A stretch of 64,000 nt of DNA from NCBI RefSeq assembly GCF_004135205.1, contig NZ_CP035490.1:6067501-6131500 (forward strand), given 5' to 3'. Below are positions 4,664 to 26,499 of this stretch, in pieces; within the stretch, counting starts at the first letter, position 1, and the number at the start of each line of letters is the position of its first letter. A program made the position numbers and the translations under genes. Source of the DNA: Hahella sp. KA22. GTDB lineage: Bacteria; Pseudomonadota; Gammaproteobacteria; Pseudomonadales; Oleiphilaceae. The notes below the pieces were generated by a model, which did no database searches, was not told where the DNA came from, and was given only the letters and a program-made list of their open reading frames with translations.

Positions 4664-5278
4664 ATGACCCAATCAATTACTCGCATTCTGAAAATCGATA
4701 GCAGCGCCCGTGCGGAAAGTTCAATGAGCCGCAAGCTGGCGCAACAACTTACTGAACAACTGGTGGCGGCCAACCCTGGCGCGGAAGTGGTTAACCGCGA
4801 TGTGTCCGGCGGATTGCCTTTCGTTACAGAAGAATGGATCGGCGCCAGTTACACCCCGGCGGATCAGCGCACTGAAGCGCAAAACCAGGCGCTGGCGCTG
4901 TCAGACAGCCTGATCGAGGAACTACAGGCGGCCGACACGCTGGTTATCGCCGCGCCCATGTATAACTTCAGCATTCCCGCTACCTTGAAAGCGTACATCG
5001 ATCAAATTTGCCGTGCGCAAGTAACGTTCCGCTATACAGAGCAGGGCCCGGTTGGACTGCTGGAAAATAAAAAGGCGTATGTAGTGGCTGTCACCGGAGG
5101 TACGCCCGTCAACAGCGCGGCAGACTTTGTGTCCGCCTATATGCGTCAGGTGCTGGGATTCATCGGCATCAAGGATGTGACCTTTATCAACGCCGACCGC
5201 ATCAAGGTTGACCCGGAGTCCATTCTGGCCGACGCGCAGCAGCAGATCGCCGCTGTAACGGATGTCGCCGCCGCTTAA
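4664..5278 (+). CDS. azoR: FMN-dependent NADH-azoreductase
   Basis: 204 residues of flavodoxin-like fold. The N terminus has the FMN phosphate-binding segment KIDSSARAESSMSRKL; PMYNFSIPATLKAYIDQICR (about 95-114) is the signature FMN-contact loop of AzoR/AcpD; GGTP near residue 142 follows a beta strand. The enzyme reduces quinones and azo compounds by two-electron transfer from NADH. I chose the ATG at 4664 because GGGAG sits 7 bp upstream; an earlier in-frame codon at 4592 would add 24 residues unlike the family. The divergent LysR gene probably regulates it. The 3' end lies 7 bp from the convergent glycerate kinase stop. Confidence 0.93.
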   Translation: MTQSITRILKIDSSARAESSMSRKLAQQLTEQLVAANPGAEVVNRDVSGGLPFVTEEWIGASYTPADQRTEAQNQALALSDSLIEELQAADTLVIAAPMYNFSIPATLKAYIDQICRAQVTFRYTEQGPVGLLENKKAYVVAVTGGTPVNSAADFVSAYMRQVLGFIGIKDVTFINADRIKVDPESILADAQQQIAAVTDVAAA

Positions 5279-5285
5279 GCGTTCG

Positions 5286-6422
5286 TCAGCCTCGTCCAGC
5301 AAGGAAGCAGGCTGTCGCATTTTCCGCGCTGCGACGCAGGTTGACGGCGGCATCCGCCAGGGCCTGGTCCAGAGTGACCACGCCCGGCGCAATGGGAAAG
5401 ACAGCCGTCAATCCCATTGTTCGCGCCGCCGCCGCATCGCCTAAAAGCGCGCCAACCAGCGCAATGGTGGGCGCGCCAACTCTTTGGGCTCTCTGCGCCA
5501 CCCCCAGTGGCGCTTTGCCTCGCAGGCTTTGACTGTCCATACAGCCTTCTCCGGTAAACACCAGATCCGCTCCCTTCAGCTTTTCGTCAAATCCACTGAG
5601 CTCCAGCACCAAATCAATGCCCTTGCGCCCTTGAGCGCCAAGCACGCCGACAAACGCCATCCCTAATCCTCCCGCCGCACCGCCGCCGGGTATCGCCTGC
5701 AACTCTCGTCCCAGCGCCCGCTCATTCAACGCCAGCCAATGAGACAACAAGCGATCGAGTTCCTGCACATCAGCGGACGTAGCGCCTTTTTGCGGACCAA
5801 AAACCGCTGACGCGCCCTGTTCCCCGCACAGGGGATTATCCACATCCAGCGCAATGGTGATGTCGCATTCGCGCAAGCGAGGGTCCAGACCGCTGTAATC
5901 CAGCGTGACCAGCTCCTTTAGCCCCTGCGCGCAGGGAGCAATTGATTCGCCCGCCGTATTGAGCGCGCGCAGGCCCAACGCCATTAACATCCCGACTCCG
6001 CCATCATTGCTGGCGCTGCCGCCGAGTCCGATCATGAAGCGCCTGGCGCCGGCGTCCAGCGCATCGCGAATGACTTCACCACTGCCCCAGCTGCCCGCCA
6101 AAAAGGGATTACGCTGCTCCCGCGTCAATAAATGCAGCCCCGTCGCCGCCGCGACTTCTATCACCGCTGTGGCGCCATCCTCCAGCAATCCCCACATGGC
6201 GGTGACCGGCTCTCCCAGTGGATTACGCACCGTCGCGTAGCGCTCATGTCCTCCCTTATTGGCGAGAATCGCCGCGACAAACCCTTCGCCGCCATCGGAG
6301 ATTTGTATCGCTTCGCAATGAGCGTGAGGCGCAGCTCGCAATACGCCCTCCATGATCGCGGCGCCGACTTCCCGGGAAGACAGGCATTCTTTGAACGAGT
6401 CTGGAGCAATCAGAACTTTCAT
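5286..6422 (-). CDS. Glycerate kinase (GarK/GlxK family)
   Basis: 378 residues starting MKVLIAPDSFKECLSS, the standard N terminus of the PF02595 glycerate kinases. Further landmarks are IQISDGGEGF, IGLGGSASNDGGVGM (substrate/nucleotide loop around residue 130), the GGGAAGGLG stretch and VFTGEGCMDSQSLRGKAP, all characteristic. The family converts D-glycerate to 2-phosphoglycerate (or 3-), ATP-dependent, linking glycolate, tartronate or glucarate catabolism to glycolysis. A start 17 codons further upstream is possible, but MKVLIAPDS matches family length. No glyoxylate or tartronate-pathway genes are adjacent. It ends almost against azoR, convergent, with no visible terminator between them. Confidence 0.92.
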   Translation of the reverse strand: MKVLIAPDSFKECLSSREVGAAIMEGVLRAAPHAHCEAIQISDGGEGFVAAILANKGGHERYATVRNPLGEPVTAMWGLLEDGATAVIEVAAATGLHLLTREQRNPFLAGSWGSGEVIRDALDAGARRFMIGLGGSASNDGGVGMLMALGLRALNTAGESIAPCAQGLKELVTLDYSGLDPRLRECDITIALDVDNPLCGEQGASAVFGPQKGATSADVQELDRLLSHWLALNERALGRELQAIPGGGAAGGLGMAFVGVLGAQGRKGIDLVLELSGFDEKLKGADLVFTGEGCMDSQSLRGKAPLGVAQRAQRVGAPTIALVGALLGDAAAARTMGLTAVFPIAPGVVTLDQALADAAVNLRRSAENATACFLAGRG

Positions 6423-8513: not shown

Positions 8514-9392
8514 TTAAAAACGCTGAGTCGCCTGCTGCCGGTACTCTCTGGGCGTAAGCCCTTTCAATTCCTGAAAACGCCGATTGAAGTTGGCGACATT
8601 ATTGAAGCCCACCTGAAAACAGATGCTCGCCACCTGTTCATCGGTTTCCGCCAGCAGACAACACGCGCGGCTGACGCGGATGCGATTGAGAAACTCCACA
8701 AAGCGATTACCAGTAGCCTTGCGGAAAAATCGTGAGAAGTGACTGTCCGTCATCCCCACCAGTTCCGCCACCTCCTGCAAGCTGATTGGCGACTCAATAT
8801 TGTTGATCACATACTCGACCACCGTGTTGATCTTGCGTTGCATGGTCTCGTTGGCTTTGGAGTTGATCTGCATGGTGGAGAGCATGCGGTAATTCGGCCA
8901 GGCCGCCAGCTCATTCATGAAATCAAAAAACAGCACAATGCGGGTCAGACCGGAGGCGTCGCGGATCTCAGCGAAGCGGTTGCGCACCTCATCAAGATCG
9001 ACGCCGATGAATTCGATGCCGGAGCGCGCGCGTTCCAGCATCGGCAGCAGCTGGCTCAATTCGGGAATGACCTTGATGCCCTGCTCGATCGTGTCGTGAT
9101 TAAAGTGCAGCAACATGTCCCGTAGCTCCACCTCGGACTCCGGGTCATTCTTGCTGATCCAGTTATGAGGCAGCCTGGGCCCGGTCAGAATCAACTGCCC
9201 CGGCCCGAACAGCCCCACATAATCGCCGATAAAGACTTTGCCGGTAGTGGCGACGATGAAGTGCAACTCGTACTCCTCGTGCACATGCCAGCGAATCAAA
9301 TCGCTGGGAAATCCATGCTCGATATAACGCACGGTGCCCGCGCTGCGGTCCGTCAACTCGATTTCCGGCACGCCTTTATTCATCTTCCGCAT
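8514..9392 (-). CDS. mtlR: AraC-family activator, probable regulator of the polyol operon
   Basis: 292 residues. An N-terminal cupin-like sensing domain (WHVHEEYELHFIVATTG near residues 35-51, GPGQLILTGPRLPHNW) is followed by the AraC DNA-binding domain with two helix-turn-helix motifs (SLQEVAELVGMTDSHFSRFF and VASICFQVGFNNVANFNRRF) and the PREYR end. It matches the MtlR type that activates mannitol/sorbitol/arabitol uptake genes in Pseudomonas. Here it is the last gene of the operon, 16 bp after mtlD on the same strand, so it would be amplified along with its targets. Polyol sensing is inferred from context. Confidence 0.85.
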   Translation of the reverse strand: MRKMNKGVPEIELTDRSAGTVRYIEHGFPSDLIRWHVHEEYELHFIVATTGKVFIGDYVGLFGPGQLILTGPRLPHNWISKNDPESEVELRDMLLHFNHDTIEQGIKVIPELSQLLPMLERARSGIEFIGVDLDEVRNRFAEIRDASGLTRIVLFFDFMNELAAWPNYRMLSTMQINSKANETMQRKINTVVEYVINNIESPISLQEVAELVGMTDSHFSRFFRKATGNRFVEFLNRIRVSRACCLLAETDEQVASICFQVGFNNVANFNRRFQELKGLTPREYRQQATQRF

Positions 9393-9408
9393 CGACTTAA
9401 CCTACTGC

Positions 9409-11670
9409 TCAGCTCATGACGTTGCCGCCATCCACATTGAATGTCTGCGCCGTAATGTAGTTTGAGGCCGGCGACGCCAGAAACAGCGCCATCCCGCAGA
9501 TATCCTCCGGCGCGCCCATGCGTCCAAGCGGCACATCCAATCCCACCCGCCTTTTCTTCTCGCCCAGAGGCAGGTTTTCATATTTGGCGAACAACGCGTC
9601 CACCTGCTCCCACATGGGAGTATCCACCACTCCGGGGGAGATCCCGTTAACAGTGATATTGTGTTTGGCCAGCGCCAGCGCCGCCGACTGCGTATAGCTG
9701 ATGATCGCCGCTTTGCTCGCACAGTAGTGCGACACTAACGCCTCACCTCTACGCCCGGCCTGGGACGCCAGGTTGATGATTTTGCCCTGCCTTTGCGAGT
9801 CTACCATGTGTTGCGCCACTTTCTGCATCGTGAAAAAAGCCCCTTTCACGTTTACGGAAAATATCCGCTCATACATGGCTTCATTGGATTCCAACAGCGG
9901 CGCCAGATCAAATACCGCCGCGTTATTGAACAGGATATCCACGCCGCCGAAACGTTCGACCGACTGCGCCAGCAAGCGATCCACAGAGGCCATATCCGTC
10001 ACGTCCGCCTGCACATAACAGGCAGTTTCGGGGTACTGCTCCAACACTGCCGCAGCTTCTTTCGACGGCGTTGCAGGCAAGTCGCAGAGCACACAAGAAG
10101 CGCCGGCGGCCAGATACGCCTCCGCCACCGCTGCGCCAATACCGCCGCCAGCGCCGGTCACCAGTGCGGTTTTGCCCTGCAGGTTGGTCAGTTTTTCGAT
10201 TGGGTAACTCACAATGTCTTTCCTTTCAAAAGAGGGGATATCGTTAAAGGCGCGGGAAGCCGACTCGATATGACGTCGCAGCAAGTCGCCGAAAGCGGGA
10301 TAGCGCTGCGGCAGATCTCCCCAGAGCTTGGCGTCGGAGACAAAGCGCTCCAAAGCATCCGGGGCGGATAATAGTTTTTCCAGCCGCGGCCATTCCGGCT
10401 CGTAATAAGGAACCGGAGCCTGCCCGGCGCGCACTCGCTGCATGAAAACATACCAGTACGCAATGGCCTGCAGCGTTCGCTCCGGCGTGCGACCGGCGGC
10501 GAAGCCGCCTTGCAACGTCGGCAGGATGAATATCGGGAACTTGCTGCCGCCGTCCGCACAAATGCGTTCAATACGATCGCCGATATTGCGGTTGCCGAAT
10601 CGGGCCAGCACTTTGCGCCAGTAGGCGTGTAAATCCAGAGGCGAATCGCCTAACGCCGGAATCGCCTCCTGCACTTCAAAGGCCTCGACAAAGGCTCTCA
10701 ACTCTGGATCATGCACCGCTGCGTCGTAAGTGGGGAATCCGCGCAGAGCGGCGAGATAAGACAGTGCGGTGTGGCCGCCATTGAGAATACGGATTTTCGC
10801 TTCCTCATAAGGCTGCACATGATCCACCAGCGTTACGCCGACGCGCTCCAACGGCGGACGCCGCCCGGCGAAATCATCCTCAACCACCCACTGCACGAAG
10901 TCTTCCGCCATCACCGTCAACGCGTCGGCGACGCCGAATCGCGCCCTTACGTCACGGGAATGTTCAGGAGCAAGACGCGGTGTAATACGGTCCACCATGG
11001 CGTTGGGGAAACTGGCGTTATCACGCAGCCAGGACAACAGCTCGGCATCGCCGACCTGCTGCAGGTATTGAGTAAAGCCTGTCTTCAGGGTATCGCCATT
11101 ATGACGCAGGTTGTCGCAGCTCAGCAGAGTGATGGGCCCTTGCCTGGACTGCATTCTCGCTCTTAAACCCGCATGCAGAAACGCATATAGCGTATTGCGT
11201 CCACTACCCTGCAGATCTGCGGCGATTTCAGGATGGGCGACATCCAGCAAACCATCCTCCTGCAAATAGTAGCCGCCCTCCGTCACCGTGATGGTGACCA
11301 ATTGCGTTTGCGCATCCGCCAGGCATTGATCCACGCTTTGCGGAGACACAGCGCCATCCAACAGACGAATCAGCGCGCCAATTTCTTCATAACGCGCCTC
11401 ACCTTCAGGCGAAACGGTTTTCAGCACATAGCTTCCGGACTGCGCCTGCAGCGCAGCGAACGCGGGGCTGTCGGCGGGCCGGAGATTCACGCCGGTAACG
11501 CCCCAGTCCTGACAGTCCTCATAGGCCAGCAGCGCATTGAAGTAATAAGCCTGATGCGCCCGATGGAAAGCGCCAACGCCTAAATGGACGACCGATGAGC
11601 TAACCTGCGAACGATCATAAGACAGCTTGAGCAACGTCGCGTCGTTCACCCCAGAACGCGTATCAGACAT
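9409..11670 (-). CDS. mtlD: Fusion: mannitol 2-dehydrogenase + short-chain (sorbitol-type) dehydrogenase
   Basis: 753 residues in one open frame. Residues 1-486 form a complete polyol-specific long-chain dehydrogenase: HLGVGAFHRAHQAYY at the NAD site and catalytic K292, N297, H300 in KIRILNGGHTALSY, as in Pseudomonas mannitol dehydrogenase (about 493 aa). Residues 487-753 form a complete SDR: TGAGGGIG at 505-512, NNAA, S/Y649/K653 in SHYCASK, and DGGN at the end, most like sorbitol (L-iditol)/galactitol 2-dehydrogenases. Together they could oxidise mannitol and sorbitol to fructose. The start ATG (11670) overlaps the mtlK stop by 8 bp. A GTG at 10212 with AGGA 8 bp upstream could also start the SDR alone. 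Confidence 0.9.
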   Translation of the reverse strand: MSDTRSGVNDATLLKLSYDRSQVSSSVVHLGVGAFHRAHQAYYFNALLAYEDCQDWGVTGVNLRPADSPAFAALQAQSGSYVLKTVSPEGEARYEEIGALIRLLDGAVSPQSVDQCLADAQTQLVTITVTEGGYYLQEDGLLDVAHPEIAADLQGSGRNTLYAFLHAGLRARMQSRQGPITLLSCDNLRHNGDTLKTGFTQYLQQVGDAELLSWLRDNASFPNAMVDRITPRLAPEHSRDVRARFGVADALTVMAEDFVQWVVEDDFAGRRPPLERVGVTLVDHVQPYEEAKIRILNGGHTALSYLAALRGFPTYDAAVHDPELRAFVEAFEVQEAIPALGDSPLDLHAYWRKVLARFGNRNIGDRIERICADGGSKFPIFILPTLQGGFAAGRTPERTLQAIAYWYVFMQRVRAGQAPVPYYEPEWPRLEKLLSAPDALERFVSDAKLWGDLPQRYPAFGDLLRRHIESASRAFNDIPSFERKDIVSYPIEKLTNLQGKTALVTGAGGGIGAAVAEAYLAAGASCVLCDLPATPSKEAAAVLEQYPETACYVQADVTDMASVDRLLAQSVERFGGVDILFNNAAVFDLAPLLESNEAMYERIFSVNVKGAFFTMQKVAQHMVDSQRQGKIINLASQAGRRGEALVSHYCASKAAIISYTQSAALALAKHNITVNGISPGVVDTPMWEQVDALFAKYENLPLGEKKRRVGLDVPLGRMGAPEDICGMALFLASPASNYITAQTFNVDGGNVMS
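10210..10226 (-). promoter_or_regulatory. Possible internal ribosome site and GTG start for the SDR half
   Basis: On the minus strand AAAGGAAAG is followed, 8 nt after its AGGA, by GTG at 10212-10210, in frame with mtlD at its codon 487. This is exactly where a stand-alone SDR gene would begin and where the mannitol dehydrogenase family normally ends. It may be a relic of two once-separate genes or a working internal start giving free SDR as well as the fusion. Confidence 0.45.
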
Positions 11671-12769
11671 GAGCCGTCTCCCCGCCATTCACATACACCG
11701 CCTGATTTTGCGGATTGAATAAACGCATCTCTTCCGCATCAAAATTCAGGCTCACTTGCTGACCTTCCATCAAACCGCTGCGCGCAGCGGATTTCACCAC
11801 CAGATTGCCGCAGCCGTTCACCTGCACATGGCAATAGGCTTCCGAGCCCAGGTTTTCAATCAGTTCAATGCGCCCCTGCACCGGTCCATCGCCTATCGGA
11901 GCGATATGGATATGCTCAGGCCGCACCCCCAGACTCCAACCAGCGCCTACGTTGTCCGCCAACACCCGCGCAGGAAGACGCAGATGGGCGTCAGCGGCGC
12001 GCACTTCGACGCTTTCGCCGCCCTGAATCACTTGATCGATGGCCAGCATATTCATCTTCGGCGTGCCGATAAATTCCGCGACAAAGCGATTCGCCGGCTG
12101 TTGGTATAGGTCAATGGGAGAGCCGCACTGTTCGATCTGGCCCTGATTAAGGATGACCACCCGGTCCGCCAGGGTCATCGCCTCCACTTGATCGTGCGTC
12201 ACGTAAATCATCGTCGTGCCAAGCTGTTTATGCAGACGCGCCAGCTCAAGACGCATCTGCACCCGCAGAGCCGCGTCCAGGTTCGATAACGGCTCATCAA
12301 ACAGGAAGACTTTAGGCTGACGTACGATAGCGCGACCAATGGCGACCCGCTGCCGCTGTCCGCCGGACAACTCGCGCGGCTTGCGCGCCAAAAGCTTATC
12401 CAGTTGCAACGAGGCGGCGACGGAACGCACTTTCTCATCAATTTCCGCCTGCGGCCGTTTCGCCAGACGCAAGGCGAAGGAAAGGTTTTCCGCCACGGTC
12501 ATATGCGGATACAGCGCATAAGACTGGAACACCATCGCCAGATCCCGCTTGGAAGACGGCGCTTCGGTGATATCCCTTCCGTCCAGATGGATAGAGCCTT
12601 CAGAGACCAGCTCAAGCCCCGCGATCAAACGCAACAACGTGGATTTACCGCACCCGGACGGGCCGACGAAAACGATAAACTCCCCTTCCTGGATTTCCAG
12701 ATTGACGCCGCGAATAGCATGGTACTGATCGTAATGTTTATGCAGATCTTTAATATTCAGATAACTCAT
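11663..12769 (-). CDS. mtlK: Polyol ABC transporter ATPase
   Basis: 368 residues of the MalK/UgpC type. The nucleotide-binding domain has Walker A GPSGCGKST (about 36-44), Q-loop MVFQSYALYPHMT, signature LSGGQRQR, Walker B VFLFDEPLSNLD and the H-loop YVTHDQ. A C-terminal TOBE/regulatory domain begins after IGTPKMN (about 240) and contains LGVRPEHI. It would energise the MtlF/MtlG permease for import of mannitol, sorbitol or related polyols. It lies 18 bp after mtlG and overlaps mtlD by 8 bp, so translation of the two is probably coupled. Confidence 0.92.
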   Translation of the reverse strand: MSYLNIKDLHKHYDQYHAIRGVNLEIQEGEFIVFVGPSGCGKSTLLRLIAGLELVSEGSIHLDGRDITEAPSSKRDLAMVFQSYALYPHMTVAENLSFALRLAKRPQAEIDEKVRSVAASLQLDKLLARKPRELSGGQRQRVAIGRAIVRQPKVFLFDEPLSNLDAALRVQMRLELARLHKQLGTTMIYVTHDQVEAMTLADRVVILNQGQIEQCGSPIDLYQQPANRFVAEFIGTPKMNMLAIDQVIQGGESVEVRAADAHLRLPARVLADNVGAGWSLGVRPEHIHIAPIGDGPVQGRIELIENLGSEAYCHVQVNGCGNLVVKSAARSGLMEGQQVSLNFDAEEMRLFNPQNQAVYVNGGETAHV

Positions 12770-12787: not shown

Positions 12788-13618
12788 CTATTTCACGGCG
12801 CCGAACGTCAGGCCCTGCACCAACTGCTTCTGACATAACCAGCCGAACGCGACGATGGGGGCGCAGGCCAGTGTGGAAGCCGCTGAAAGCTTGGCCCAGA
12901 ACAGGCCTTCCGGGCTGGAGTATGAGGCGATCATGGAAGTCAGCGTGCCGGCGTCCGCCGCGGTCAGGTTGAGAGACCAGAATGACTCGTTCCAACACAG
13001 CACGATGGACAACAGACCAGTGGAGGCGATGCCTCCCCAGGCCAGCGGCATGACGATTTTCACTACCTCTCCCATGGGACTGGCTCCATCCATTCTGCAG
13101 GCTTCCAGGATTTCCCTGGGAATGTCTTTGAAGTAGGAAAACAGCATCCACACCACGATGGGCAGGTTCATCATGGTGAAAATGATGATCAGACCAATAC
13201 GCGTATCGAGCAGCCCGTAATCACGGAACAGAATGTAAATCGGCACCAGTACGCCCACCGCGGGCAGCATTTTGGTGGACAACATCCACAGCAACAGATC
13301 CTTGGTGCGCTTTCCGGGATAAAACGCCATGGCGTAAGCGCCGGGAATGGCGATCAGCAGCGCCAGAATAGTCGCGCCGAAGGACGTCACAATCGAGTTG
13401 ATGGCGTGCTTCAGGTAATCGCTGCGCTCCTGCACCAGAGAAAAGTTCTCCAGAGTCGGTTCGAACACCAATGTGGGCGGCGAGGAAATCGCCTGCAGCT
13501 CAGTTTTGAATGAGGTCAGAAACATCCACAGAATGGGAAAAAACAGCAGCAAAGCGATTCCCCAGGCGGAAACGCCTACGATCCAGGTACGCACTTTATA
13601 TTTTTGCTTCAGATTCAT
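12788..13618 (-). CDS. mtlG: Polyol ABC transporter permease (MalG-type)
   Basis: 276 residues with six predicted membrane helices, the first at about residues 12-34 (TWIVGVSAWGIALLLFFPIL). The ATPase-coupling EAA loop is plain: EACRMDGASPMGEVVKIVMP near residue 180. It is the shorter of the two permeases in this CUT1-family importer. It starts 7 bp after mtlF and is followed 18 bp on by mtlK. Substrate assignment rests on the operon, whose dehydrogenases act on mannitol and probably sorbitol. Confidence 0.92.
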   Translation of the reverse strand: MNLKQKYKVRTWIVGVSAWGIALLLFFPILWMFLTSFKTELQAISSPPTLVFEPTLENFSLVQERSDYLKHAINSIVTSFGATILALLIAIPGAYAMAFYPGKRTKDLLLWMLSTKMLPAVGVLVPIYILFRDYGLLDTRIGLIIIFTMMNLPIVVWMLFSYFKDIPREILEACRMDGASPMGEVVKIVMPLAWGGIASTGLLSIVLCWNESFWSLNLTAADAGTLTSMIASYSSPEGLFWAKLSAASTLACAPIVAFGWLCQKQLVQGLTFGAVK

Positions 13619-13625
13619 AGCCGCC

Positions 13626-14486
13626 TCACACCGTTAAGTTCTTGCCGATGGCGCGAATCAGGAAAAACGCCACGATATTGGCCAACACCACCGCAAACAA
13701 ACCGCCTGCGGACGCAATGCCCACATCGAATTGCAATAGCGCCTGGGAATAGATCAGATACGCCAGGTTGGTGCTGTCATAGCCGGGGCCACCGCCGGTA
13801 GAAACATAAATCTCAGCGAACACCACCAGCAGAAAAATGGTTTCGATCATGATCACCACAGCGACCGGGCGAGCGAGATGGGGAATGGTGAGATAGCGGA
13901 AAATATGCCAGCTGGTGGCGCCGTCCATCCGCGCCGCTTCTTTTTGCTCCGTATCCTGGGACTGCAACGCAGTGACGAACACCAGAATCGCAAACGGCAG
14001 CCACTGCCAGCTCACCATGATGATGATGGAAAACAGGGGGACGTCCGCCAGCCAGTCCATCGGCTCCATCCCGACCATTTGCGAGAGCCAGGCGAAGACC
14101 CCATACACCGGGTTCATCATCATGTTTTTCCAGATCAATGCGCTGACCGTAGGCATGACGAAAAACGGCGAGATCAACAATACCCGCACCGCGCCGCGAC
14201 CAAAGAAAGGCTGATCAATCAGGGCGGACAACGCCACGCCAAGCACCACAGTGATAGCCAGCACCGATCCCAGCAGGATCAGCGTATTGTTCACCGCCGG
14301 CCAGAAGCCGGGGTCGGTGACGAAAAACTCGTAGTTCAGCAAGCCAGTGAAGTTATGCTCGCCGGGGTACAGCAGGTTATAACGGATGGTGGAGAAATAT
14401 ATCGTCATCGCCAGGGGCACGATCATCCACAACAACAGTGAGATGACGGACGGAGCGAGTAACGTTCGCGTTACAGCACGTTGCAT
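13626..14486 (-). CDS. mtlF: Polyol ABC transporter permease (MalF-type)
   Basis: 286 residues, six predicted membrane helices beginning near residue 11 (LLAPSVISLLLWMIVPLAMT). The EAA loop EAARMDGATSWHIFRYLTIP (about 187-206) marks an ABC importer permease. The start is 133 bp downstream of mtlE, the only sizeable gap in the operon, and that gap holds two inverted repeats, one of them a GC-rich hairpin, that may limit read-through or protect the upstream mtlE message. The partner is MtlG. Confidence 0.92.
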   Translation of the reverse strand: MQRAVTRTLLAPSVISLLLWMIVPLAMTIYFSTIRYNLLYPGEHNFTGLLNYEFFVTDPGFWPAVNNTLILLGSVLAITVVLGVALSALIDQPFFGRGAVRVLLISPFFVMPTVSALIWKNMMMNPVYGVFAWLSQMVGMEPMDWLADVPLFSIIIMVSWQWLPFAILVFVTALQSQDTEQKEAARMDGATSWHIFRYLTIPHLARPVAVVIMIETIFLLVVFAEIYVSTGGGPGYDSTNLAYLIYSQALLQFDVGIASAGGLFAVVLANIVAFFLIRAIGKNLTV

Positions 14487-14619: not shown

Positions 14620-15936
14620 TCAGTAATAGCCGGACTGACGCATCTGACGATCCGCCGACACATTGGCGGACTGCAGCGCTTTTTCAACGGACACGCTGCC
14701 CGTCAACGCCCCGGTCAACATCTGCCCGGTCGCCATGCCAATCGCCTGAAATTCGGGAATGGCGGCGAACTGCACGCCGATATAGGGCGACGGCTCCAGA
14801 GTGTTGTCTTCTGGATTAGCGGAGTTAATGGCCTTAAGCTCCGCTGATGCGAATACCGCCGCTTTCAGGAACTCAGGATTTTCGTAGGTGCTGGTGCGCG
14901 TACCGGTAGGAACCGAGCCCCATCCCTGCGTATCCGCCACCAGTTGGATGTAGTCCTTGGAAGTGGCCCAGGTGACGAACTTCTGCGCCGCTTCAGCATG
15001 CTTGGTCGCGGCGGGAATGGCGAGCGACCATGCCCACAGCCAGTTGGCGCCCTTATCGGTCACAGCGACGGGGGATTGCGCAAAGGCGACCTTGTCTGCA
15101 ACTTTGCTCTGTTTGGGATCGCTGACGAATGACGCCGCTATAGTGGCGTCGATCCAGATGCCGCACTTGCCTTCGTTGAATAGCGCCAGGATCTCGTTGA
15201 AGCTGTTAGAACTGGAGCCCGGCGGGCCGTAGTTCTTCAGCAGATCAACATAGAAGCTGACGGCATGGGTCCAGGCGGGCGTGGTCAGCTGCGGCTTCCA
15301 TTTTTCATCAAACCAGCGCGCGCCAAATGAGTTGGCCATGGTGGAGATGAACGCCATGTTGTCGCCCCATCCGGATTTGCCGCGCAGGCAGATGCCGTAG
15401 ACGCCTTCCTTAGGCTTGTGCAGCGCCGCCGCCACATCTCTGATATGCCCCCAGGTGGGTCGATCTTCGATGGTCATGCCCGCTTTTTCGACCAGGTCCT
15501 TGCGGTACATGATCATGGAGCTTTCGCCGTAAAAAGGCGCCGCATAGAGTTTGCCGTCGACAGACAGTCCTTTACGAACCGCCGGTAGAATATCGTCCAC
15601 ATCATAGGACGCGTCGGTATTTATTTCCTTTAACCAACCGCGTTTGCCCCAGATCGGCGTCTCGTACATGCCGATGGTCATCACATCGTACAAGCCGCTC
15701 TTATTGGCGATGTCCTGCGTGACGTTCTGGCGCAAAACGCCTTCTTCCAACGTCACCCATTTCAATTTGATGTCTGGATTGGCCTTTTCGAAATGGCTGC
15801 TCAGCTTCTGCATTTCGATCATGTGGCCGTTGTTGACGGTAGCGATTGTGATTTCCTCAACCGCTGACGCGAGAGACGAGATCCCCAGGGAAATGGTCGC
15901 CGCCGAAACCAGCGCAGCGCGGGATAGAAACTTCAT
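14620..15936 (-). CDS. mtlE: Polyol ABC transporter substrate-binding protein
   Basis: 438 residues. A typical Sec signal peptide (MKFLSRAALVSAATISLGIS, cleavage after ASA near residue 25) precedes a family 1 extracellular binding fold. The mature start EEITIATVNNGHMIEMQKLS and later YAAPFYGESSMIMYRKDL resemble the MtlE/SmoE polyol binding proteins. It is the first gene of the operon, with GGAGG 7 bp before the ATG. It binds its polyol in the periplasm and passes it to MtlF/MtlG. A -10-like TATAAT lies about 113 bp upstream of the start. Confidence 0.92.
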   Translation of the reverse strand: MKFLSRAALVSAATISLGISSLASAVEEITIATVNNGHMIEMQKLSSHFEKANPDIKLKWVTLEEGVLRQNVTQDIANKSGLYDVMTIGMYETPIWGKRGWLKEINTDASYDVDDILPAVRKGLSVDGKLYAAPFYGESSMIMYRKDLVEKAGMTIEDRPTWGHIRDVAAALHKPKEGVYGICLRGKSGWGDNMAFISTMANSFGARWFDEKWKPQLTTPAWTHAVSFYVDLLKNYGPPGSSSNSFNEILALFNEGKCGIWIDATIAASFVSDPKQSKVADKVAFAQSPVAVTDKGANWLWAWSLAIPAATKHAEAAQKFVTWATSKDYIQLVADTQGWGSVPTGTRTSTYENPEFLKAAVFASAELKAINSANPEDNTLEPSPYIGVQFAAIPEFQAIGMATGQMLTGALTGSVSVEKALQSANVSADRQMRQSGYY

Positions 15937-24739: not shown

Positions 24740-25435
24740 TCAGGCTCGTTTCAGGCGTCTCGCGACCAGGCCCAAACCGCCCAACAACAACATCGCGTAT
24801 GTTGCTGGCTCGGGTACCTCTCGGAAAACAAAATAATCGCTGTTATAGGTTGATCCATAGCGGTAAGTCATCTCGCCATCCACATTATACCCTTCAAGAT
24901 ACATATAACTGCCTGAATTAGGGCCATTTCCATCAATTGGAAGAGAAAACAATGGGCCGGTAATAGTATTCCTTATTCCATCATATGCTTGAAAGCCAAT
25001 TTTTACTTTATCGCCGCTATCTGTTTCTAACCATGCAGAAAATGACATATCATAATACTCGGAGTGAAACTCAGTCCCATCCTCTTCCGCGTACTGAACA
25101 TAGCCACTTATCGTTATGCTATTAGGGCCATAATCACTCAGATGATAACGATCCCCTCCTAACATAAAGGAAAACTCAGTAAACGCATCAGCATAGCTGC
25201 CAGAATAATACTTAAAATCATATTTTTCGTCCTTGTAGCTATACTCAGAGACGGGTGTGTTTGAGTTGTACTGAAAAAATCCAGAGAATATATCATCACC
25301 AGTCTGATATGGGCCGCTTCCAATCTCTAATGTATCAAAGACACCATTTAAGTCTGCTTCAATAAGAGCAGAATGCGCTGAAAAAGAAATGCCCAAAGCA
25401 CAGACAGATGTCAGAAAAACTGTAGTTAATTTCAT
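24740..25435 (-). CDS. PEP-CTERM sorted exported protein, paralogue 1
   Basis: 231 residues. Signal peptide MKLTTVFLTSVCALGISFSA, then a beta-rich body, then a PEP-CTERM tripartite tail: VPEPATYAMLLLGGLGLVAR followed by RLKRA. Such tails direct export and exosortase-dependent processing, usually alongside exopolysaccharide production; no exosortase gene is in the window. The body shares DIFSGFFQYNSNTPVSEYS, FSFMLGGDRYHL and SFSAWLETDSGDKVKI motifs with the next two genes upstream. I chose the ATG preceded by GGAG 6 bp away over an ATG four codons earlier. Confidence 0.88.
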   Translation of the reverse strand: MKLTTVFLTSVCALGISFSAHSALIEADLNGVFDTLEIGSGPYQTGDDIFSGFFQYNSNTPVSEYSYKDEKYDFKYYSGSYADAFTEFSFMLGGDRYHLSDYGPNSITISGYVQYAEEDGTEFHSEYYDMSFSAWLETDSGDKVKIGFQAYDGIRNTITGPLFSLPIDGNGPNSGSYMYLEGYNVDGEMTYRYGSTYNSDYFVFREVPEPATYAMLLLGGLGLVARRLKRA

Positions 25436-25533
25436 CGATTGCTCCATTTAAAATTTATACTTTCTAAATACTAAGCCAATCAGGCCAAGAAAAATTGATA
25501 ATACAGGCGCTGGCACAAAAACCACTTTCTTTG

Positions 25534-25732: not shown

Positions 25733-26443
25733 CTATGCCTTTATAAACCGTCTTGCGGTTAATCCTGCAACCCCCATTAGCAACATTGCAGCAGTATAGG
25801 GCTCTGGAACTTTCTTGAACTCATAACTAGCGCTATCTGAGAATATCGACTTGATTTTGTACGTCATATTTCCGCCTGCATCGTACCCTTCGAAGTCAAT
25901 TCCAGTCATACTGGATGGACCATATCCGCCGGTAGGCAAAGCATAGAGAACATCGCTACCAGAACCATCTTCTCTATATGCATCTGACCCCAGATAGCTT
26001 ATTTTCACTTTTTTACCATCAACCGACTCCAGCCACGCAGAAAAGGAAAATGTATAATAATTGTATCCAGACATATTTCCTTCTTCGTCGTAAGTTACAT
26101 ACCCAGCAATCGTCACATCATTGGAAGCAGCGTCATCAAGATGATACTCGTCTCCGCCGACCAAAAAGCTAAAGTCTGTAATTGCATTATTGTACTTCCC
26201 TGAATAATCCACCCACACATCGCCAGAGTGATTAGTAGACTCAGTACTGTATTCCGAAACAGGCGTGCGCGAATCAAATTGAATGGTTACATTAAAAATA
26301 TCGCCCCATATTTCATAAGGAGATTCGCCAGATTCCACTTCGCTAAAAACACCTTCAAAGTCCATTTCAACCAAAGCCGCATTGGCTTGAAAAGCCATAC
26401 TGGCAAATACAGATGCGGATAAGAGAGTAGTAGTAAGCTTCAT
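25733..26443 (-). CDS. PEP-CTERM sorted exported protein, paralogue 2
   Basis: 236 residues. Signal peptide MKLTTTLLSASVFASMAFQA, a body with DIFNVTIQFDSRTPVSEYS and FSFLVGGDEYHL close to paralogue 1, and the tail VPEPYTAAMLLMGVAGLTAR then RFIKA. The ATG at 26443 has AGGA 7 bp upstream; the 24 bp around the start (AAGATCAATAGGAATGATAA then ATGAA) are nearly identical to those of paralogue 3, so these two arose by tandem duplication including the leader. Expected location is outer surface or matrix after processing. Confidence 0.88.
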   Translation of the reverse strand: MKLTTTLLSASVFASMAFQANAALVEMDFEGVFSEVESGESPYEIWGDIFNVTIQFDSRTPVSEYSTESTNHSGDVWVDYSGKYNNAITDFSFLVGGDEYHLDDAASNDVTIAGYVTYDEEGNMSGYNYYTFSFSAWLESVDGKKVKISYLGSDAYREDGSGSDVLYALPTGGYGPSSMTGIDFEGYDAGGNMTYKIKSIFSDSASYEFKKVPEPYTAAMLLMGVAGLTARRFIKA

Positions 26444-26499
26444 TATCATTCCTATTGATCTTATGTGAAGAAAAACAAAATTATATTTTTGAGGGAAAA

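Follow-up and report, generated by a model that had tools for sequence, protein, structure and literature searches.

A mannitol-type dehydrogenase joined in frame to a sorbitol-type dehydrogenase in a polyol operon of Hahella

We have analysed a stretch of 64,000 nucleotides of Hahella sp. KA22 (the window) in which one reading frame of 753 codons joins a mannitol dehydrogenase (MDH) to a short-chain dehydrogenase (SDR) of the sorbitol type. Judging by sequence and gene context, the product is probably a bifunctional NAD-dependent polyol dehydrogenase, formed from two joined overlapping genes of an operon and acting on sorbitol and on mannitol or D-arabitol. What is new is the fusion itself; both enzymes are of kinds already known and no new class of system is involved. 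The fused gene, its parts and the other genes of the operon are the following.

14620..15936, minus strand, extracellular solute-binding protein, first gene of the operon (Pfam)
13626..14486, minus strand, ABC transporter permease 1 (Pfam)
12788..13618, minus strand, ABC transporter permease 2 (Pfam)
11663..12769, minus strand, ABC transporter ATPase of the UgpC/SmoK type, overlapping the fused gene by 8 nt
9409..11670, minus strand, fused MDH~SDR gene, 753 codons plus stop (Pfam domains, open frame)
10240..11670, minus strand, MDH half, codons 1-477, predicted polyol-specific long-chain dehydrogenase with K292, N297 and H300
10213..10239, minus strand, linker, codons 478-486, probably a former intercistronic spacer, containing AAAGGAAAG upstream of GTG487
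10210..10212, minus strand, GTG codon 487, which the alignment places at the first ATG of a free-standing SDR (genome G271); a TGA of the +1 frame overlaps it (GTGA)
9412..10212, minus strand, SDR half, codons 487-753, predicted L-iditol/sorbitol 2-dehydrogenase of the SmoS type with S636, Y649 and K653
8514..9392, minus strand, AraC-type regulator, last gene of the operon (Pfam)

The original prediction, that a complete MDH and a complete SDR share one 753-codon frame, was borne out by the open frame and by both sets of domains, all above their Pfam cut-offs: Mannitol_dh (PF01232, residues 26-275) and Mannitol_dh_C (PF08125, 284-455) in the first half, adh_short (500-690) and adh_short_C2 (506-749) in the second. 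An alternative in-frame ATG six codons upstream would extend the protein to 759 aa. The calculated mass of the fused protein is 82 kDa, and the two halves made separately would be of about 53 (MDH) and 28 kDa (SDR). The best PDB match of residues 17-452 was the mannitol dehydrogenase 1lj8 and that of residues 497-753 the sorbitol dehydrogenase 1k2w, which come from Pseudomonas fluorescens and Rhodobacter sphaeroides, respectively. All the residues named beforehand were present: K292, N297 and H300 lie in a stretch well aligned with 1lj8, and the TGxxxGIG motif (TGAGGGIG, 505-512), Y649 and K653, together with S636, in one well aligned with 1k2w. We assume for them the usual catalytic roles in the two families, including those of the Lys, Asn and His of the MDH. 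The SDR half passes the NCBIfam model of L-iditol 2-dehydrogenase (NF005472, 408.9 bits against a cut-off of 338). For the MDH half the top NCBIfam model was D-arabinitol 4-dehydrogenase, at 455.2 bits and below the cut-off of 600, so that its substrate is not fixed by this match, and the sequence does not separate mannitol from D-arabitol. The seven Pfam families matched do not include a phosphatase domain, and the protein is thus not a bifunctional MtlD of the Acinetobacter type. Nor is the SDR the stand-alone polypeptide expected of the SmoS type, as it is fused to the MDH in all four of the Hahella genomes that have it.

The frame was found intact, with no stop, in four of the seven Hahella genomes: that of the window (G000) and three others at 97% (G004), 96% (G006) and 95% (G001) identity. 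At E <= 1e-60 the match in two more (G002, G003) was limited to an MDH of 38% identity, and the seventh (G005) gave no match to the fused protein at this limit. It is scarcely conceivable that an artefact of assembly or sequencing deleted a stop codon. Such an error would fit the fact that operon relatives carry MDH and SDR as separate genes, but the same frame recurs in four different genomes whose fused genes show a whole-gene synonymous divergence of 0.30-0.44, and this rules out the sequencing error or frameshift at the junction that had been named beforehand as something that would refute the prediction. Within the genome of Hahella sp. KA22 nothing but the fused gene matched the MDH half, and the best SDR match after it had 35% identity, so there is no close second copy. 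The MDHs of G002 and G003 lie on another, deeply separated branch, and the search gave no SmoS-type SDR in these two genomes at the limit used. Related yet distinct polyol-type transporter genes occur in the other Hahella species (loci L138 of G002, L013 of G003 and L140 of G005); in L140 the ATPase (4712-5789) and the AraC gene (9401-10213) are each broken into two frames, whether through an error or through decay.

Purifying selection acts on both halves. In the six pairwise comparisons of the four Hahella genes, codons 1-474 (MDH half) gave a dN/dS of 0.056-0.084 and codons 495-753 (SDR half) one of 0.007-0.020; in the linker region (20 codons) each pair has just 0-3 nonsynonymous differences, so that its six values are little informative. 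Change is faster in the MDH half than elsewhere in the operon, possibly a sign of relaxed constraint: compared with the window, the other three fused genes are 92.5-96.5% identical in this half, while for the SDR half and the remaining genes of the operon the range is 97.8-99.5%. One might then suppose that only one half is active and that the other has become a passenger or a docking platform, and the difference in dN (0.019-0.042 for the MDH half vs 0.002-0.007 for the SDR half) points that way. We consider it unlikely, given the low dN/dS of both halves and their intact catalytic residues. Activity of both halves within the fused protein, their substrates and the use of NAD+ are predictions.

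The original prediction saw no linker at the junction, and here it needs correcting. The ends of 26 stand-alone MDH relatives align at Hahella residues 474-500 with a median of 477 (four reach 488 via a gap and one reaches 500 by a single misplaced residue), which leaves about nine residues before V487. In the structure model the last MDH helix runs to residue 476, pLDDT falls below 50 at 478-491 and the first SDR strand is at 501-505. The model is poor elsewhere too (pLDDT < 50 at 288-395, pTM 0.44), its alignment being too shallow for the MDH core, and therefore it does not fix how the halves are placed relative to each other. With the MDH ending at about 477 and the SDR starting at V487, residues 478-486 are most simply a former spacer that is now read through. 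The linker is probably a short, flexible or disordered remnant of that spacer, together with its ribosome site.

As to how the two genes came to be one, the proposal of a lost stop codon stands in part. That two genes were fused is supported by the unfused pairs found in the same operon elsewhere; a small change of frame in the last MDH codons is just as possible as the loss of the stop, since the GTGA seen here resembles the ATGA overlaps of the relatives. Most likely, adjacent overlapping MDH and SDR genes were joined in frame in a Hahella ancestor, either because the MDH stop was lost or through a minor change of frame in its vicinity, and the former spacer would have become the short flexible linker.

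The GTG at codon 487, preceded by AGGA with 8 nt between, is there in the sequence as described, and with its ribosome site retained the cell might contain a free sorbitol dehydrogenase besides the fused protein. We hold this second product to be possible, although we would not bet on it. In its favour, the first ATG of the free-standing SDR of G271, with GGAGAG shortly upstream, falls on GTG487 in the alignment; the GTG and the preceding AGG AAA GAC (codons 483-485) do not vary among the four Hahella sequences; there is no synonymous change over codons 479-488, and of the AGG codons in the gene only AGG483 is conserved in every one of the four; and the ribosome-site energy (-5.6) falls within the range of the other operon starts (-3.4 to -10.8). 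However, by this energy GTG487 is only 17th of the 65 in-frame NTG codons (22nd of 120 in all frames), so that a strong internal site can be discarded and a free SDR is no more than possible. Besides, the run of ten codons without synonymous change is only the sixth or seventh longest in the gene, with five longer ones, and recent ancestry could explain why the site has been retained.

The fused gene is the fifth of an operon in which binding protein, two permeases, ATPase, MDH~SDR and AraC-type regulator all point in one direction. The 8-nt overlap with the ATPase gene and the gap of only 16 nt to the regulator argue for co-transcription. Binding protein, two permeases and ATPase beside the dehydrogenases are the make-up of a polyol uptake operon of the Smo type. 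No convincing MtlR-like operator was seen upstream of the operon, the best candidate agreeing at 11 of 20 positions within 664 bases. There are eight matches to PfkB-type sugar kinases in the genome, none inside the window, and one of them could act as fructokinase. Elsewhere in the window, two similar neighbouring proteins (24740-25447 and 25733-26449, minus strand) have tails that resemble those of the PEP-CTERM kind.

Polyols would be taken up by the ABC transporter of the operon and then oxidised by the fused enzyme, the N-terminal half acting with NAD+ on mannitol and/or D-arabitol and the C-terminal half, also with NAD+, on sorbitol and perhaps galactitol. The joint use of polyols proposed at the outset fits the context of ABC transporter and AraC-type regulator and, by analogy, the enzymes SmoS and MtlK of Sinorhizobium meliloti; the comparison then made with the mtl operon of Pseudomonas is beside the point, the host genus being Hahella. 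In S. meliloti, SmoS is described as the enzyme for sorbitol/galactitol and MtlK, a separate one, as that for mannitol/D-arabitol; both depend on NAD+ and are fed by an ABC transporter (PMC10433430). Fructose is the product of both SmoS and MtlK in that account (PMC10433430), and in Hahella two such dehydrogenases sit in one chain at a 1:1 ratio. On these grounds the halves might run in opposite directions through shared fructose and NAD(H), as a redox-neutral interconverter of sorbitol and mannitol. We think this very improbable, because the context, with its uptake system, is catabolic, there is no evidence of channelling and the S. meliloti relatives oxidise their substrates for growth (PMC10433430). 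Its fullest version, with two active sites interconverting the polyols, fructose staying near the chain, NAD+ and NADH recycled between the halves and a free SDR from GTG487 setting the ratio of activities, is more improbable still. Oxidation by both halves after uptake is the reading that we prefer.

The seven products of this operon occur in the same order, with MDH and SDR as separate genes, in four other genomes, of which G109 belongs to the same order as Hahella and G371 and G600 to the same class; the fourth is Xenophilus azovorans (L047). Stop of the MDH and start of the SDR overlap as ATGA in G109, G600 and L047 and as TAATG in G371 (starts inferred). It is this identical order with separate overlapping genes that leads us to think that the pair was joined within a Hahella lineage. 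A tree built from 33 MDHs places the Hahella fusion at one unresolved fork with G109 and two groups of other MDHs, so that the tree establishes neither the arrival of the Hahella MDH with the operon nor its common descent with the MDH of G109. All 12 of the unfused MDH-then-SDR pairs examined (L047, L110, L116, L117, L125, L127, L155, L156, L157, L171, L175 and L176) have separate stop-to-stop frames; in S. meliloti (L127) the two genes are 19 nt apart.

With the fused protein as query, the fusion was seen only in Hahella among the sampled genomes. The samples comprised 293 genomes of the order, 369 of the class, 398 of the phylum and 116, 63 and 22 of the families of G109, G371 and G271; they overlap, the three largest are subsets of larger groups, and only matches below each E-value limit were considered. 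Among 176 loci, including 80 on genome contigs (among the matches listed) and the matches with the longest open frames, both halves shared one frame in eight (L001, L009, L010, L011, L014, L144, L145 and L146, with L014 a record of G004), all from the four Hahella genomes. The search for the same domain order elsewhere, suggested together with the original prediction, was thus fruitful within Hahella and turned up no fusion outside it among the loci checked.

Several candidates for a further fusion were discarded. In G1093 and G1097 the match was continuous over residues 4-753, but the DNA has two frames with in-frame stops. None of the long open frames of G872, G996, G834, G108 and G197 holds both halves, and in the adjacent pairs of G1155 and G1156 the halves are not in one frame. 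Sinorhizobium medicae plasmids also gave one-piece matches, but in the one examined at the junction (L125) the genes lie 45 nt apart with a stop; 213 plasmid records matched, 40 of them were listed and the junctions were examined in four. We also observed that MDH and SDR of G1093 and G1097 (L155, L156) are in the same frame and kept apart only by stops within it and a short spacer, an arrangement that comes near to a fusion. In G872 (L170) a 34%-identical SDR frame stands directly before the MDH frame, in reverse order and unfused.

No description of a natural MDH-SDR fusion was found among titles and abstract openings in the literature, a search outside which most subscription journals lie, and the main text of the paper on SDR196C phylogeny mentions neither a fusion nor Hahella (PMC3458964). 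The gene offers a clean example of how an overlapping pair of operon genes can fuse: operons that otherwise agree in gene order still exist both with and without the fusion, which makes the step open to test by dividing the gene again. A naturally occurring enzyme that turned both mannitol and sorbitol into a single product with a single cofactor might also be of use in the biocatalysis of rare sugars or mannitol.

Joining a dehydrogenase of a mannitol pathway to another enzyme is already known from Acinetobacter (PMC6291793), and the Hahella fusion is new only as a variant in this respect. There, MtlD is a mannitol-1-phosphate dehydrogenase/phosphatase, reported to be restricted to one genus; it is likewise a dehydrogenase of mannitol metabolism joined to a second enzyme, but it is joined to a phosphatase and serves to make an osmolyte (PMC6291793). 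The mtlE-Z operon of P. fluorescens, for mannitol, arabitol and glucitol, resembles that of Hahella in its ABC transporter, its MDH (MtlD) and its AraC-type activator MtlR; it differs in including the kinases MtlY and MtlZ and in having MtlR encoded elsewhere, and no SDR is named in the available part of its description (PMC4514859). The smo locus of S. meliloti and R. sphaeroides has the same two enzyme families and the same kind of transporter (PMC10433430, PMC3458964). In S. meliloti there are two genes and a DeoR-type regulator, smoC (PMC10433430), whereas Hahella has one gene, with the MDH first, and an AraC-type regulator. The operons of G109, G371, G600 and X. azovorans share all seven products in identical order and differ in keeping MDH and SDR in separate, overlapping frames.
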